From Meghimatium bilineatum (Eukaryota; Mollusca; Gastropoda; Stylommatophora; Philomycidae), in NCBI GenBank assembly GCA_034231615.1, contig CM067322.1, forward strand, positions 101,083,587 through 101,147,586: 64,000 bases of DNA, in the 5' to 3' direction. Below, in pieces: positions 48,976 through 63,608 of this stretch; position 1 is the stretch's first letter; every line of letters begins with the position of its first letter. A program made the position numbers and the translations under genes. Under the pieces are notes generated by a model. It ran no database searches. It was given only the letters and a program-made list of their open reading frames with translations, and had not been told where the DNA came from.

Positions 48976-49380
48976 TCATGTGACGTATTCTCTCCTGAAC
49001 ATTGTCTTCCAACTTAACTTCCTGAACCCTTCTCTGTCTTGGGCCATGCAGCTTGCATTTACCAACAACGTATTAATGTTATCTTTAATGTCGGCAGTCC
49101 ATTGTCTTCTTGGTCTGCCCTTTCCTTTCTGCCCAGGTGCTCTGCCCTCCATTATTTGTCTTTCTAAATAGATGTGTCTTTTTATATGACCAACAGATAT
49201 AGTTTTCTTTTTGCTATTGTGTTTAGTAACCAACACTCTGGCATCTTCAGTGTGTTTATAATATCTGAGTGTCTTTTTTTTCCTTCCATGATATTCTAAG
49301 TATCTTTCTGTAGCATTTCATCTCAAAGGCATTGATCCTCTTTGCCACTATTTTATTTAGGGTCCATGTTTCACAGTCCA
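48976..49380 (-). pseudogene. LINE C-terminal fragment
   Basis: The - strand reads GCETWTLNK-like (via TGTGAAACATGGACCCTAAA), INAFEMKCYRKILRISWKEK, then VGHIKRHIYLERQIMEGRAP, GRPRRQWTADIKDNI and stop at 48976. This is the standard ending of an RNase H-less LINE RT. Its CETWT codons are the source of the adjoining 14-bp array. Confidence 0.78.
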
Positions 49381-50166
49381 TGTTACACAGTCCATGTTAC
49401 ACTGTCCATGTTTCACTGTCCATGTTACACAGTCCATGTTTCACTGTCCATGTTACACAGTCCATGTTACACAGTCCATGTTACACAGTCCATGTTACAC
49501 AGTCCATGTTACACAGTCCATGTTTCACTGTCCATGTTACACAGTCCATGTTACACAGTCCATGTTACACAGTCCATGTTACACTGTCCATGTTACACAG
49601 TCCATGTTACACAGTCCATGTTTCACTGTCCATGTTACACAGTCCATGTTACACTGTCCATGTTTCACTGTCCATGTTACACTGTCCATGTTACACTGTC
49701 CATGTTACACTGTCCATGTTACACTGTCCATGTTACACTGTCCATGTTACACTGTCCATGTTACACTGTCCATGTTACACTGTCCATGTTACACTGTCCA
49801 TGTTACACTGTCCATGTTACACTGTCCATGTTACACTGTCCATGTTACACTGTCCATGTTACACTGTCCATGTTACACTGTCCATGTTACACTGTCCATG
49901 TTACACTGTCCATGTTACACTGTCCATGTTACACTGTCCATGTTACACTGTCCATGTTTCACTGTCCATGTTACACAGTCCATGTTACACTGTCCATGTT
50001 ACACTGTCCATGTTACACAGTCCATGTTACACTGTCCATGTTACACTGTCCATGTTACACAGTCCATGTTACACTGTCCATGTTTCACTGTCCATGTTAC
50101 ACTGTCCATGTTACACAGTCCATGTTACACTGTCCATGTTACACTGTCCATGTTTCACTGTCTACA
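49362..50166. repeat. 14-bp array, about 57 copies, derived from an RT motif
   Basis: The unit is CCATGTTACACTGT with variants CCATGTTTCACTGT and CCATGTTACACAGT. On the - strand TGTGAAACATGG is the CETW coding sequence of the LINE directly to the left, so the array extends that codon block. The three long + strand open frames arise because 14 copies shift through all frames without a stop. Confidence 0.95.
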
Positions 50167-56092: not shown

Positions 56093-56266
56093 CTCAAATC
56101 CTTAAAATAATCATGTTTTAGTGCTTGCTTTGCTGTAATTCTCTTGTCTGGGTCATATGTACACATCAAATAAATTAATTGAATGGCATCAGAAGATACA
56201 TGGGTCAGCAATTTCTCAATCCCTGATCCTTTCTTATATGGAAAGTTGAAGGTCATTCCTCGTGAT
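56093..56266 (-). CDS. MOK: MOK kinase, subdomain X-XI exon
   Basis: The acceptor TTTTTGATAG precedes 56266 and the donor GTAAGG follows 56093. It reads SRGMTFNFPYKKGSGIEKLL, SSDAIQLIYLMCTYDPDKRI and TAKQALKHDYFKDLR. FNFP.KKGSGI and the YDP..R..A..AL.H.YF ending of subdomain XI are diagnostic of MOK (vertebrate form FDFPFKKGSGI). The first base completes Arg with the previous exon's AG, and the last two bases AG start the next Arg codon. Length is 174 nt. MOK is a MAPK-superfamily kinase of the MAK/ICK/MOK group, linked to cilia in animals. Confidence 0.93.
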
Positions 56267-56479
56267 CTATCAAAAATGTGAAAATTGTAACAAATGTTAA
56301 TATAAATAAAAGGAGTAAATTCCTTTGCAAATATTAGAAAACTGGTCTTAAACAAAGTCATGTAACACATTGAAAGGCAAATAGCAGCATACTTGTCTTA
56401 AAAATTAGGCAAATAAGCCTACACTTTAAATAAACATACGTCTGTATACATAAATAAGTACATTACAAGTTGTAACACT

Positions 56480-57048
56480 GACAGCAAACTGACAACCTAA
56501 CACTGACAGCAGACTGACAACCTAACACTGACAGCTGACTGACAACCTAACACTGACAGCAGACTGACAACCTAACACTGACAGCACACTGACAACCTAA
56601 CACTGACAGCAGACTGACAACCAAACACTGACAGGAGACACAACCTAACACTGACAGGAGAATGACAATCTAACACTGACAGCAGACTGACAACCTAACA
56701 CTAACAGCAGACTGACAACCTAACACTGACAGCAGACTGACAACCAAACACTGACAGGAGACTGACAACCTAACACTGACAAGAGACTGACAACACAACA
56801 CTGACAGGAGACTGACAACCAAACACTGACAGGAGACTGACAACCTAACACTGACAGCAGACTGACAACCAAACACTGACAGGAGACTGACAACCTAACA
56901 CTGACAAGAGACTGACAACACAACACTGACAGCAGACTGACAACCTAACACTGACAGGAGACTGACAACCTAACACTGACAGGAGAATGACAACCTAACA
57001 CTGACAGGAGAATGACAATCTAACACTGACAGGAGAATGACAACCTAC
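56480..57048. repeat. 25-bp array starting at a MOK 5' splice site, about 23 copies
   Basis: On the - strand the unit is GTTAGGTTGTCAGTCTGCTG plus TCAGT. The first, variant copy is the splice donor itself (GGAG|GTAGGTTGTCATTCTCC). The remaining copies follow without spacer into the intron. Confidence 0.93.
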
Positions 57049-57150
57049 CTCCTGAATTTATTGAGAAGACTGGTTTCTGGAGTTCCCATGAGGTCATGGA
57101 TTTTTGCAATTTGATCGACTTCATTTATACCAGGAAATAATGGATGCAAA
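57049..57150 (-). CDS. MOK: MOK kinase, subdomain X exon
   Basis: The acceptor CTCTCTTTTCAG precedes 57150 and the donor GTAGGT follows 57049. It reads (S)LHPLFPGINEVDQIAKIHD, then LMGTPETSLLNKFR. It begins with the T that completes a Ser codon and ends with AG of the next Arg. PLFPG.NE.DQI.KIHD.(I/L/M)GTP is the MOK signature after subdomain IX. Length 102 nt. The tandem array begins immediately at its donor. Confidence 0.94.
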
Positions 57151-57189
57151 CTGAAAAGAGAGAAATGTTTTATTGTCTGCATAGTTTGT

Positions 57190-57475
57190 CTTTCTTTCTT
57201 TCATTCACCACTTTATGTCTATACTGTCAGACAAGTCTTATATTCACTACTTGATGTCTACACCGTCAGACAAGTCTTAGGTTCACTACTTGATGTCTAC
57301 ACCATCAGACAAGTCTTATATTCACTACTTGATGTCTACACCGTCAGACAAGTGTTATGTTCACTACTTGATGTCTACACCATCAGACAAGTCTTATGTT
57401 CACTACTTGATGTCTACACCATCAGACAAGTGTTATATTCACTACTCGATGCCTACACTATGAGACAAGGCTTAT
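57190..57475. repeat. 46-bp minisatellite, about 6 copies
   Basis: The unit contains TTCACTACTTGATGTCTACA and CCGTCAGACAAGTCTTAT. It starts about 40 bp upstream of the MOK exon 57049-57150 acceptor, in transcription direction. Confidence 0.9.
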
Positions 57476-57479
57476 AGAT

Positions 57480-57880
57480 GAACTCCACCATTGTCTGGAG
57501 CTCTTCTTTGCTTGCAGAGTTGCCCCGTTAGGCCAGTACGTCTCTCTCAATTGTTCTTACTGGGGACAGTTCTGCAGAATATGTTGTTAGGTCTGTTCAT
57601 ATGTTGTGCACAGTACACAGTGGTGTGGTACACAGCTGCATGCTGTGCATGTGTTTGTTCTGTCCTCAGGTGAAGTATTTGACCTCTCCTTTTTGATTTA
57701 GTTAGTGGTAGTCATCCTTTGTCATACTATGTTCACTTCCCATAGTTTGTATATCTCTCTTCTTTGTCATACTATGTTCACTTCCCATAGTTTGTATATC
57801 TCTCTTCTTTTCTTGATATGAGACTTCATTGTCTTGGAACATACACTCTCCTCTCTCTGTGGCGAACTCATCGGCTGAGA
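57480..57880 (-). pseudogene. RNase H LINE 3' region with a 57-bp internal duplication
   Basis: The - strand encodes FQDNEVSYQEKKRDIQTMGS, with KKRDIQTMGSEHSMT repeated in tandem (57718-57815), then KDDYH. In shifted frames GQILHLRTEQTHAQHAAVY and NNIFCRTVP-like text follows. These are the SYQEKK, LRTGH and EHILQ.CP blocks after RNase H. Badly degraded. Confidence 0.68.
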
Positions 57881-58539
57881 ATGTAAAGCGATTGAATGAG
57901 TTTGGAATTTCTTGGGGAGATAAGAGAAGGAGATGATTGATGGGTAGGATAATGAAAAAATACATTCCACATATACATAAACTATCATCACACATACACT
58001 TCACCATCTGCTGAAACAGATGCAGCTCATATGGGTACACCAAGACTGTACATCAATCTGTTCAGATAATCACTACTGATAATTAAAAGATAATAATAAT
58101 AAAGAAGAATAAGGAAAATACAAATTAATGTTTTGGTAAATGTTTTCTGCCTTCAATAGAATAATAATGATACAATAACAGATAGAAAAAAACTGTAATA
58201 AAAAATTCTTAAAATATTTTCAAATATATATATATACACACACAGTGCATCTATGTATAAGCGTAAATGCTTATTTTACAAAAAAATTGCTTATTATTTA
58301 GTTTATATTTTAGTGTCACACACACAAAATAAACTAACACAATTTATTTCACAAAAAGGACTCAGAACTGAACGCAGTTACACTTGTTACACAAGAAGTT
58401 TTCAACTGAAAATGAACATTTCACCCAAATCTTATACTGTACTAGGTTAAATGTGTGAAATCAACTACATGAGAATCAAGAAATAAAAATCAGAAACACT
58501 GAAGATATGCAGAAATCAATCCCCACTAGAAATATACAG
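57881..58539. other. MOK intron sequence, no gene recognised
   Basis: AT-rich, with a short TA/CA microsatellite near 58224-58245. Confidence 0.55.
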
Positions 58540-59143
58540 ACGGCACAAAACCCAACCTAGTAAAGGTATTCAAGTATCTAGACAGCGTGTTCTCAGAAGA
58601 CGGGAGACTAGATAGAGAAATAGAGACAAGATGCTAGTAACACAGTTTTATATTAATTAGCAACACCGCTGAAACACGAGAACAATGACATGATCTCCAA
58701 AAGAATGTCAATAAAAACAGTGTTCATGTCGACACTGTGCTACCAATGCCAGACCTGGTCCCTGATAGAGAAACTAAAACAAAAACTCAACATATGCGAA
58801 ATAAAGTGAATGAGAACAGCACTGGGGGTAACAAAAAAGAGATAGAATAAATAAAGACACCATAAGAAATCTGATGAAAACACTATTGTGCAAAGAATAC
58901 ATAAACACACAAAAGATGAAATGGTTCAGCCATCTAATCAGAATGGAACCAGATCGCATTCCATCGATAGCCTTCAATAAAAGATCATCTGAAAAGAGAA
59001 ACAGGAGAAGACCCAGACAAAGATGGATAGATGACATCAGAGAATTACTAGAACACCAAGGCTGCACTATGACAGCAGCATCACAATTAGCTAAAGAAAG
59101 AAGACTTCAGCTCCCCATGATACCAAACGACATACATGGATAA
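58540..59143 (+). pseudogene. LINE RT C-terminal region, degraded, with an open ending
   Basis: VKVFKYLDSVFSEDGRLDRE, then FMSTLCYQCQTWSLIEKL in pieces. The clean frame 58874-59143 follows: KMKWFSHLIRMEPDRIPSIA, RRRPRQRWIDDIRELLEHQG, then ERR LQLPMIPNDIHG and TAA. It is the usual GH..RM / GRPRQRW ending of an RNase H-less LINE. Its last 13 codons, stop and tail are the unit of the array that follows. Confidence 0.82.
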
Positions 59144-60668
59144 GACAAGACTTCAGCTCCCCATGATACCAAATGACATACATGGATAAGACAAGACTTC
59201 AGCTCCCCATGATACCAAATGACATACATGGATAAGACAAGACTTCAGCTCCCCATGATACCAAATGACATACATGGATAAGACAAGACTTCAGCTCCCC
59301 ATGATACCAAACGACATACATGGATAAGACAAGACTTCAGCTCCCCATGATACCAAACAACATACATGGATAAGACAAGACTTCAGCTCCCCATGATACC
59401 AAACGACATACATGGATAAGACAAGACTTCAGCTCCCCATGATACCAAACGACATACATGGATAAGACAAGACTTCAGCTCCCCATGATACCAAACGACA
59501 TACATGGATAAGACAAGACTTCAGCTCCCCATGATACCAAACGACATACATGGATAAGACAAGACTTCAGCTCCCCATGATACCAAACGACATACATGGA
59601 TAAGACAAGACTTCAGCTCCCCATGATACCAAACGACATACATGGATAAGACAAGACTTCAGCTCCCCATGATACCAAACGACATACATGGATAAGACAA
59701 GACTTCAGCTCCCCATGATACCAAACGACATACATGGATAAGACAAGACTTCAGCTCCCCATGATACCAAACGACATACATGGATAAGACAAGACTTCAG
59801 CTCCCCATGATACCAAACGACATACATGGATAAGACAAGACTTCAGCTCCCCATGATACCAAACGACAAACATGGATAAGACAAGACTTCAGCTCCCCAT
59901 GATACCAAACGACATACATGGATAAGACAAGACTTCAGCTCCCCATGATACCAAACCACATACATGGATAAGACAAGACTTCAGCTTCCCATGATACCAA
60001 ACGACATACATGGATAAGACAAGACTTCAGCTCCCCATGATACCAAACGACATACATGGATAAGACAAGACTTCAGCTCCCCATGATACCAAACGACATA
60101 CATGGATAAGACAAGACTTCAGCTCCCCATGATACCAAACGACATACATGGATAAGACAAGACTTCAGCTCCCCATGATACCAAACGACATACATGGATA
60201 AGACAAGACTTCAGCTCCCCATGATACCAAACGACATACATGGATAAGACAAGACTTCAGCTCCCCATGATACCAAACGACATACATGGATAAGACAAGA
60301 CTTCAGCTCCCCATGATACCAAACGACATACATGGATAAGACAAGACTTCAGCTCCCCATGATACCAAACGACATACATGGATAAGACAAGACTTCAGCT
60401 CCCCATGATACCAAACGACATACATGGATAAGACAAGACTTCAGCTCCCCATGATACCAAACGACATACATGGATAAGACAAGACTTCAGCTCCCCATGA
60501 TACCAAACAACATACATGGATAAGACAAGACTTCAGCTCCCCATGATACCAAATGACATACATGGATAAGACAAGACTTCAGCTCCCCATGATACCAAAC
60601 GACATACATGGATAAGACAAGACTTCAGCTCCCCATGATACCAAACGACATACATGGATAAGACAAGA
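59101..60668. repeat. 46-bp array of a LINE 3' terminus, 34 copies
   Basis: The unit starts AAGACTTCAGCTCCCCATGA and ends ATGGATAAGAC. It is the coding sequence for RLQLPMIPNDIHG plus its TAA and tail. Copies are nearly identical, with AACGA/AATGA/AACAA variants, and the array ends in AAGACAAGACAAGACG. Confidence 0.97.
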
Positions 60669-61058
60669 CAAGACGAAGTTAACTTCACTTTCAATTTTGA
60701 TATAGAGGCAAGGTCAAGTGTGACTCTCATTATTAGATGACCTACATACTGAATCAAAACAGGCCCTTCATATGATGTGATATCAAATATTTTCGCAGTC
60801 ACTGCAATATTTTCATTGGTCACTTTGTGTCACCTGCCAATGCCAACCAACGAAATGCAAAGAAATAATCAAAAATATGTCATAAAAAGGCTCATTTTGC
60901 TTCTGCCTACAGGTTAACACACATAGACACACCAGAAAGATGAAACAAGACAGGTATGAAACTGTTGCCATCATTGCTTGCAATGGATGGATATTAATGA
61001 TATCTTGGTCCCTACGGTGGAAGACTAAACTTGTCATATTTCTTTGTACCTTGTACAT
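60669..61058. other. MOK intron sequence, no gene recognised
   Basis: Unique sequence between the 46-bp array and the 10-bp array. Confidence 0.55.
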
Positions 61059-61166
61059 CACAACTACATCACAACTACATCACAACTACATCACAACTAC
61101 ATCACAACTACATCACAACTACATCACAACTACATCACAACTACATCACAACTACATCACAACTAC
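61059..61166. repeat. 10-bp array just inside a MOK intron, about 11 copies
   Basis: The unit is ACTACATCACA (10-11 bp). On the - strand it starts about 12 bp after the donor of exon 61177-61269. Confidence 0.93.
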
Positions 61167-61176
61167 AAGCACTAAC

Positions 61177-61269
61177 CTTAAAATTTCAAAAAAAACACAG
61201 CCAACACTCCAAATATCCATCTTGTAGTCATAGTAACCATCAGTCAACAAACACTCTGGAGCGCGATAC
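61177..61269 (-). CDS. MOK: MOK kinase, subdomain VIII-IX exon
   Basis: The acceptor GTTCACTAG precedes 61269 and the donor GTTAGT follows 61177. The first base completes Trp. The exon then reads [20 protein letters not shown] and [10 protein letters not shown], ending AG (completed to Ser by the next exon). [21 protein letters not shown] is the MOK APE motif and subdomain IX Asp. Length 93 nt. The acceptor is a weak CTAG with a modest pyrimidine tract. Confidence 0.94.
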
Positions 61270-61474
61270 CTAGTGAACACATACAAGCATGATCATATAC
61301 ATGATATTACCAAAAATAGCCACGATAGAAAGGGAAAGCATATGAATATATATGAGGTAGACAAAATATGACATTTGAAATTAAATATGATAGAGAGGTC
61401 ATAAGAAAATAGTGAACAGAAATATAAACCAGGAAAAATCTGAGCATAGAAGTAGACTGGCTCCTCAAAACTAT

Positions 61475-61585
61475 TATCAAAAAACATCAGATAATATATA
61501 TTAGACACATAAACTATCAAAAAACATCAGATAATATATATTAGGCACATAAACTATCAAAAAACATCAGATAATATATATTCAT
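61475..61585. repeat. 51-bp repeat, 2-3 copies, next to a LINE tail
   Basis: ACTATCAAAAAACATCAGAT plus AATATATATTAGACACAT, repeated directly beside the tail of the following LINE. Confidence 0.88.
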
Positions 61586-61587
61586 CA

Positions 61588-61870
61588 TCATCAAGTGCCG
61601 TCTCCGAAACAAATGTTGACTGCAACGAATCTCCAACATCCCCTGTCTCTTGCCTTGGTGGTGCACTCTGCTAGTCTGTAACCTGTGCATTGTGTGATGT
61701 TACTCTCCCACTTGTATCTCTGCCTACCACTTGCTCGCTTCCCTTTGACTTTACCCTCAAGTAAGGTCTGCAATAAGGTCTTTTAATCTGTCCAAAATAT
61801 TTTACTACAACTTTTAGCCTTTCAGCCACTGATTTTAGTCCAATTTGTTTATACCACATCTTTCAGTCTT
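61588..61870 (-). pseudogene. LINE 3' end with GATGATGA tail
   Basis: The - strand has TLLEGKVKGKRASGRQRYKW, NITQCTGYRLAECTTKARDR, then GDGT and stop. In an upstream frame it has KVVVKYFGQIKRP. The tail is GATGATGATGA. Same group as the LINE at 54230. Confidence 0.78.
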
Positions 61871-62011
61871 CAAAAAATAGTAGAGATCACAGGTCTGATA
61901 ATCCAGTCACCATGACCTTTGAGTTATAGTTGATATATATCCTTGACATTTCTGCTCAGGAAAAAAATGAACAACAAGAGCACACACCTTACAGATAGAT
62001 TATTGTTCTTA

Positions 62012-62669
62012 CCAACGTGTGGAGATGTACTTACCAATGTGTGGAGATGTACTTACCAATGTGTGGAGATGTACTTACCAATGTGTGGAGATGTACTTAT
62101 CAATGTGTGGAGATGTACTTACCAATGTGTGGAGATGTACTTATCAACGTGTGGAGATGTACTTACCAATGTGTGGAGATGTACTTATCAACGTGTGGAG
62201 ATGTACTTACCAACGTGTGGAGATGTACTTACCAATGTGTGGAGATGTACTTACCAACGTGTGGAGATGTACTTACCAATGTGTGGAGATGTACTTACCA
62301 ACATGTGGAGATGTACTTACCAACGTGTGGAGATGTACTTACCAACGTGTGGAGATGTACTTACCAACGTGTGGAGATTTACTTATCAACGTGTGGAGAT
62401 GTACTTACCAACGTGTGGAGATGTACTTACCAATGTGTGGAGATGTACTTACCAACGTGTGGAGATGTACTTACCAATGTGTGGAGATGTACTTACCAAT
62501 GTGTGGAGATGTACTTACCAACGTGTGGAGATGTACTTACCAACGTGTGGAGATGTACTTACCAATGTGTGGAGATGTACTTACCAACATGTGGAGATGT
62601 ACTTACTAACGTGTGGAGATGTACTTACTAATGTGTGGAGATGTACTTACCAACGTGTGGAGATGTACT
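62012..62669. repeat. 22-bp array of a MOK exon end plus 5' splice site, about 30 copies
   Basis: On the - strand the unit is ATCTCCACACGTTGGTAAGT plus AC. This equals the last 14 nt of exon 62651-62736 (coding ISTRW) and the start of its intron. The array begins within the exon and extends into the intron. Most copies keep GT; some have ATAAGT and lose it. Confidence 0.96.
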
Positions 62670-62736
62670 CTGTATAAGGTTGATTAGAGGTCAGACTACG
62701 ACATGAACCAAAGTCTGCAAGTTTCAACAAATCTTC
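62651..62736 (-). CDS. MOK: MOK kinase, DFG/activation-segment exon
   Basis: The acceptor TTTCTCTACAG precedes 62736. The exon reads EDLLKLADFGSCRSLTSNQP, then YTEYISTR and TG of the next Trp. ADFGSCRS carries the Mg-binding DFG Asp. The TEY matches the MAPK-type TXY activation-loop motif, as in vertebrate MOK (QPYTEYISTRWYRAPE). The first donor is GTAAGT at 62645-62650. It is also the first of about 30 tandem donors. Reading past it gives TGG then TAA. The N-terminal lobe and catalytic loop (HRD) lie beyond the window. Confidence 0.95.
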
Positions 62737-62931: not shown

Positions 62932-63608
62932 TTCTTCTTCTTCTTTCGTTCACTTGAAACATGTCTATATCTGTAATTCTGTCTCCTTAATAAAAACTCA
63001 CTGTCTTTTGTAGTTCATACAGTGTCCCATAGAGCTTTGATTCCAGTGTTGTTTCCTCTGGCCAATATGTCTGCCTCAGCTTTCATGCTCAGAACACTCT
63101 TGAAGTATATGTTTGGCACTCTGTGCTGCCTGTCCACATGTACACATGGTCGTGTTGCCAATCTTGAACTTTGTATACATGTGACTGCGGAGTCGGTTGT
63201 GTCCTGTTCTGAGATGTAGAATTATAACTTGTTCTGGTCTGTTCATAATATTATAGTCATCTTGTGTTGGTGTTTGTGGCTTTCTTATTGACTTGATCAT
63301 CTGTTTTTTCTGATGGTAGGTGATTGGTATATCTGGTTGGTCTTCGGCAGCACCTTCCTTAGCCAGTTGGTCTGCTTTTTCATTTCCTCGTATTCCACAG
63401 TGAGAGGGTATCCACTGCATGGTTACCCTATACTGGTAAGACAATTCGCTAAGTAGTTTTTTTCAAGTCTGTTAGTTTTTCAGACTGGAGAGCTTGAAGC
63501 ACTGACCTTGCATCTGTCAGGAATACCACAGGCTGTAGGCCAGAGTTGGAGTTCAGCAGAGTTATTTAGCTGCCACACTACTTGCCTGGATATCTGCATC
63601 ATAATTAT
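62932..63608 (-). pseudogene. RNase H LINE 3' end, 677 bp
   Basis: The - strand has RNase H from a NYDAD-like start, VFLTDARSVLQALQS, MQWIPSHCGIRGNEKADQLA, then ITYHQKKQMIKSIRKPQTPT, HLRTGHNRLRSHMYTKF, CTCGQAAQSAKHILQECSEH. It breaks at a TGA and resumes in other frames to a KETELQI ending and a GAAGAAGAAG tail. It is nearly identical to the LINE at 28255-28711. An 11-bp duplication with one mismatch (ATGTTATACAT at 62921, ATGTTGTACAT at 63609) bounds it. It sits in a MOK intron. Confidence 0.9.

Follow-up and report, generated by a model that had tools for sequence, protein, structure and literature searches.

A 22-bp minisatellite of 30 copies runs across an exon-intron junction of a slug kinase gene, with its repeat unit consisting of the end of that exon along with the 5' splice site (donor) which follows. 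This array is probably best viewed as an accident that the gene tolerates, i.e., as a young minisatellite which would have begun, by chance, across the junction, with the first donor presumably remaining dominant and with at most a small leak to later donors. The slippage origin, the dominance of the first donor, and the nonsense-mediated decay (NMD) of leaked transcripts are the parts of this reading that I infer. The window, as the term is used here, is the whole stretch of DNA that was analysed. It holds 39 tandem arrays after merging, which cover 9,077 of its 64,000 bp, and this density speaks for the accidental-minisatellite reading.

Four exons of the host gene, and the intron that follows the first of them, are found on the minus strand as follows:

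62651..62736, minus strand: kinase exon A, 86 nt, encoding EDLLKLADFGSCRS...TEYISTRW (W codon split), with acceptor ctctacag and donor TTG/GTAAGT, as placed by frame, splice sites, and Pfam

61270..62650, minus strand: intron A, 1381 nt, of which tandem repeats make up about 55%

61177..61269, minus strand: kinase exon B, ending CVFFEIL, with donor AAG/GTTAGT

57049..57150, minus strand: kinase exon C, LHPLFPG...LLNKFR, with donor GAG/GTAGGT

56093..56266, minus strand: kinase exon D, SRGMTFNF...DYFKDL, with donor GAG/GTAAGG and with the nearest array 212 nt downstream

Exons A to D are open, possess usable splice sites, and join in frame across three introns, giving a product that reads EDLLKLADFG...DYFKDL. 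The joined exons match the Pfam profile Pkinase (PF00069) with an E value of 2.6e-29 over profile positions 137-263 of 263, i.e., the C-lobe. Among the best 60 of 1,199 PDB matches, MAPK6 comes first, followed mainly by CDK2 chains and other MAP kinases, with no MOK-named sequence seen among those 60. As judged from its translation, the gene encodes a CMGC-like protein kinase. The first-pass annotation had named it MOK, a candidate name which is plausible in that the TEY loop and a further protein stretch would fit MOK. Exons further upstream fall beyond the end of the window; the intron upstream of exon A occupies a minimum of 1,264 nt of it, and no kinase exon was recognised by eye in translations of that in-window part. 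Just upstream of exon A, presumably within this same intron, is a fragment resembling a retrotransposon RNase H (PF00075, 8e-07; 63079-63462, minus strand). Pattern searches for relatives of the kinase gave 3 matches in viral contigs and 31 in prokaryote contigs, none of them confirmed, and none was expected in either set.

Between 31.3 and 51 kb, inspection by eye of 279 stop-to-stop segments with a length of at least 35 aa revealed no convincing exon of another host gene, and, among eight long open reading frames of the window that were compared with Pfam, five carry retrotransposon or transposase domains and three are without match. A 14-bp array of 57 copies (49362-50162) is preceded there by an acceptor-like TTTATTTAG.

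The array itself, along with its parts as these are relevant to splicing, is as follows:

62004..62669, minus strand: 30-copy minisatellite of 22-bp units, which takes up the end of exon A (19 nt) and the start of the intron (647 nt), as found by TRF, copy table, and pattern count

62643..62650, minus strand: first donor, GTAAGTAC (copy 1), the sole donor giving the full kinase, U1 duplex -10.5 kcal/mol

62599..62642, minus strand: copies 2 and 3, which are the closest rivals of copy 1 and have A at -1 (TTA/GTAAGT), U1 duplex -7.0 kcal/mol

62005..62598, minus strand: copies 4-30, with 22 donors that share every letter of the first between -3 and +8, four dead (AT, nos 13, 22, 24, and 26), and one GTAAGA (no 30)

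TRF describes this array as having a period of 22, 30.3 copies, and 94% matches. Cutting it instead at the boundary between ATCTCCACACGTTG and GTAAGTAC, which in that order make up the repeat unit, yields 30 copies on the minus strand, from 62664 to 62005. Copy 1 takes in the final 14 nt of exon A (62664-62651), and five further exonic nucleotides (AGTAC, 62669-62665) match the repeat unit as well. A pattern for the unit, with Y/R allowed at its CpG, is found at 23 places in the window versus a mean of 0.00 in 100 shuffles. That the exon end and its 5' splice site are present here as tandem copies, as the first-pass annotation had proposed, is confirmed. The location which it gave (62012-62669) holds too, except for the end: the repeat continues to 62005 or 62004, with 62012 being instead position +1 of the final donor. 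Minisatellites are defined as head-to-tail units of 15-100 bp (PMC3618361). The 22-bp array consists of head-to-tail units within that size range, in many similar copies. Antisense open frames of 210-247 aa also pass through the array on the plus strand (61934-62677, 61971-62609, and 61999-62631), which is ordinary for a 22-bp unit that is free of stops.

A GT is present in 26 of the 30 copies and is replaced by AT in the other four, which bears out the earlier description of most copies as keeping a donor and some as having mutated. Twenty-five of the 30 retain the full GTAAGT; at -1, G has become A in copies 2 and 3, and copy 30 reads GTAAGA. With donor strength taken as the ViennaRNA duplex energy with the U1 5' end, 23 copies, including the first, reach -10.5 kcal/mol, copies 2 and 3 reach -7.0, copy 30 reaches -8.0, and the four AT copies are at about -4. 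Donors B, C, and D of the same gene are at -7.8, -10.4, and -10.1 kcal/mol, respectively, and -10 or better is reached by 0.6% of the 7,885 GT sites on both strands of the window, the array included. The steps of this ladder are strong donors, that is, and the first donor's two nearest rivals are weakened by an A at -1. This A in copies 2 and 3 may reflect selection, or it may instead reflect one mutation along with copying at the edge of the array.

Use of any donor after the first is costly to the protein. Splicing from copies 2-7 and 28-30, as tabulated isoform by isoform, places TGG-TAA after ISTR, with the protein ending ...TEYISTRW, and copies 8-27 give a stop as well, since the TGG TAA of copy 1 precedes every later junction. 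With any such donor the RAPE motif (subdomain VIII) and all that follows it are lost. The frame argument of the first-pass annotation, i.e., that every donor except the first creates a stop following STRW and removes the kinase from subdomain VIII on, therefore holds. The TAA stands right after ISTRW with exons B to D still downstream, as in an AS-NMD switch. Premature stops lying upstream of later exon junctions lead to NMD, and NMD of the extended transcripts is therefore to be expected.

A rival view of the array is length-dependent. The extra donors would compete with the first, each use of one would end in a TAA and NMD, and copy number would set the amount of productive kinase mRNA, such that the array would serve as a heritable rheostat. 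The equality of 22 of the 29 downstream donors to the first in U1 pairing favours such a view, as do the stop which the reading frame supplies after each downstream donor and the readiness with which minisatellites, as is generally known, change in copy number. Against it, exon A would have to reach up to 724 nt, and the competitors nearest to the first donor are weakened ones. A length-dependent brake upon productive mRNA is, on the sequence, possible, but as an account of the array I consider it rather unlikely.

How the spliceosome chooses among equivalent donors bears on the matter further. Exon definition is expected for exon A because it lies between long introns (one with no less than 1,264 nt inside the window, the other of 1,381 nt), and the first donor therefore should dominate. 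That is, the spliceosome would pair the acceptor of exon A with the nearest donor, that of copy 1, so that productive kinase mRNA would predominate, while use of copies 2-30, adding multiples of 22 nt (+22n) and with TAA straight after ISTRW, would amount to at most a small, constant leak. In five minigenes, each with a pair of identical CAG/guaagu donors and flanked by introns of 365 nt, the upstream donor was used exclusively, as under exon definition (PMC9225289). Genome-wide, according to the same paper, near-equal-strength donors under exon definition favour the upstream one, with shorter exons preferred; prior to matching for strength, about 60% of events show a preference for downstream donors, and under intron definition, too, it is the downstream donor that is favoured (PMC9225289). 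By analogy, use of the first donor should be the outcome at exon A. From that upstream-only choice, little length-dependent leakage would be predicted, and it stands as well against the rheostat described above. Those minigenes, however, had two donors and were studied in transfected cells (PMC9225289), whereas here there are approximately thirty donors in a slug gene. With 22 intact downstream donors identical to the first over 11 nt, equal competition is possible.

The differences among copies look mutational, that is, like methyl-CpG decay in a young array, rather than like function. Of 23 differences from consensus, 15 lie at the unit's single CpG (13 as CA and two as TG), and 21 of the 23 are transitions, these being counts of copies which are related by descent rather than counts of independent events. 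The window as a whole has a CpG observed/expected ratio of 0.45, with TpG and CpA in excess. Among the eight non-CpG differences, two are found at -1 and six are inside GTAAGTAC, and because those six fall within the donor's 8 nt, the donors are not visibly protected. This absence of a sign of selection for the donors, a weak test given that the copies are related, leaves unsupported the proposal of the first-pass annotation that a ladder of donors sets a length-dependent share of productive mRNA. That 25 of 30 copies still carry GTAAGT is to be expected if the array is young, and it does not count as evidence that these donors are used. The differences among copies bear as well on whether the array is an assembly artefact or the gene is dead. 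Tandem arrays are error-prone in assemblies, but these copies differ irregularly, in a mutation-like manner, and a dead gene fits poorly with four exons which are open and in frame across three introns and which match Pkinase; I hold either to be very improbable. Block duplication of a higher order within the array found no significant support by shift autocorrelation (best shift 9, P over shifts 0.16), and a resemblance in variant order of copies 4-6 plus 11-13 to copies 17-22, as paired by eye, is for that reason not claimed.

The flanks suggest how the tolerated minisatellite may have arisen. On the left the array is bordered by exonic ...CAGAG/TACATC and on the right by GTAAG/AACAATAATC, which suggests a single-copy ancestor with GTAAGAAC as its donor, in which the first duplicate arose by slippage from GTAAG back to the exonic AG/TAC. 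Replication slippage between these short homologous stretches, the exonic AG-TAC and the donor's GTAAG, would have duplicated 22 bp containing both the exon end and the donor, with further slippage or unequal exchange then giving rise to 30 copies. If so, then U1 pairing of the first donor would have gone from -8.0 to -10.5 kcal/mol with the duplication, a direction of change that I infer. The alternative to such strengthening is that copy 30 changed from T to A later on.

Two neighbouring arrays complicate a reading in terms of chance:

61054..61167, minus strand: 11-bp tandem array of 10.4 copies, starting at intron +10 after exon B, without strong donors inside

56473..57047, minus strand: 25-bp minisatellite of 23 copies, starting at intron +2 after exon C, without repeated strong donors

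Neither can be viewed as a donor ladder, with their best sites besides the real donor reaching -2.8 and -6.0, so that among the three arrays, only that of exon A is one. Between exon A and exon D (56093-62736), 3,400 of 6,644 bp consist of arrays, versus 10% of the window below 56093, a density which also speaks for the accidental-minisatellite reading. An equal or smaller summed distance between array and donor is reached in 1e-5 of random intron placements, and three arrays all lying within 20 nt of the donor or acceptor side in 4.5e-4; circular shifts of all of the arrays bring three of the four donors into contact at 3 of 64,000 window positions, or 3 of 7,300 in-gene positions, true position included. 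These tests are post hoc and concern a single gene, with p ranging from 1e-5 to 5e-4 according to the test. Abutment upon three donors of one gene nonetheless is not well explained by chance, and it counts against the array as accident.

From a different perspective, then, 5' splice sites might seed or anchor minisatellites in the slug genome, e.g., via transcription-linked breaks or slippage beside exons, with the ladder being but one outcome. Consistent with this, arrays start at -19 (exonic), at intron +10, and at intron +2 for three of four donors, and random intron placement reproduces three arrays within 10 nt of a donor in 2.75e-5 of trials. That test, though, was framed after the pattern had been noticed and in one gene, donor D is without an adjoining array, and donor-like sites are not enriched at the edges of the 39 arrays, most of which are outside of any recognised gene: 5 of 78 edges have such a site at -6 or better versus 6.4 expected, and at -10 there is one versus 0.5 expected, with the ladder's own first donor falling outside of the tested interval. 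Such seeding I regard as improbable, and the still more elaborate combination, in which donor sites seed minisatellites and ladder length in the kinase in addition tunes productive mRNA, i.e., a rheostat of copied 5' splice sites, as far-fetched.

U1 snRNP is extremely abundant. The array might instead be an intronic platform for U1, whether guarding against premature polyadenylation or titrating U1, as its 26 GT-bearing, U1-pairing copies within 660 nt would allow. That abundance, as general knowledge, is far too great for titration by one locus, which makes the titration proposed by the first-pass annotation implausible and indeed unlikely, and the single AATAAA/ATTAAA hexamer of intron A leaves little to protect. 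A role as such a platform is, overall, scarcely credible.

Minisatellites which bear donors have precedent, among them one of human IFI6 (6-16), which is partly exonic. Turri et al. (1995) reportedly described it as providing multiple splice donor sites. The 22-bp array likewise sits at an exon-intron junction, is partly exonic, and has consensus donors within its repeats (GT in 26 of 30, GTAAGT in 25 of 30). In IFI6, the closest known case, minisatellite repeats supply several splice donors, with two downstream repeat units acting as such and with three mRNA species resulting (PMC4526556). This reported use of downstream repeat donors lends something to the length-dependent view; at the same time only a few steps are reported as used, so that limited use of further steps would, by analogy, have precedent. 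The two cases differ in gene, organism, and unit, and the extra donors of IFI6 lead to protein isoforms whereas here they lead to an immediate stop. A donor-bearing minisatellite is already known, that is, and it is the stop-making steps which are the difference here.

Other systems are less close. The intronic VNTR of ABCA7 is, as here, a tandem repeat of an intron that is linked to splicing, but the title and abstract opening of that paper, unlike what is seen in the slug array, mention no donors in the repeat (PMC5954066). CeRep25B of C. elegans, also an intronic minisatellite, is enriched in the vicinity of alternative splicing regions, with splicing-regulation motifs and a statistical link, but in that paper's excerpt, and unlike in the slug array, donors within the repeat are not described (PMC4039745). 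Intron 1 of earthworm metallothionein genes has minisatellite-class repeats in an invertebrate intron, as here; the excerpt mentions no donor within these repeats, whose role is left open by its authors (PMC12783039). Intron gain by tandem duplication also ties duplication to changed intron structure (PMC4974935), but the slug array duplicates no acceptor and yields no new intron. Among the matches listed, no title or abstract opening names the slug kinase locus or a MOK repeat.

If the first donor dominates, as the tolerated minisatellite would have it, then this locus would represent a natural test, involving approximately thirty near-identical donors, of the spliceosome's preference for the donor nearest to the acceptor. 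If the first donor is not dominant, then the array would be instead a length-variable brake upon a kinase gene. With arrays abutting three of four donors, one may ask as well whether, in repeat-rich genomes, minisatellites are bounded or indeed seeded by the edges of exons.
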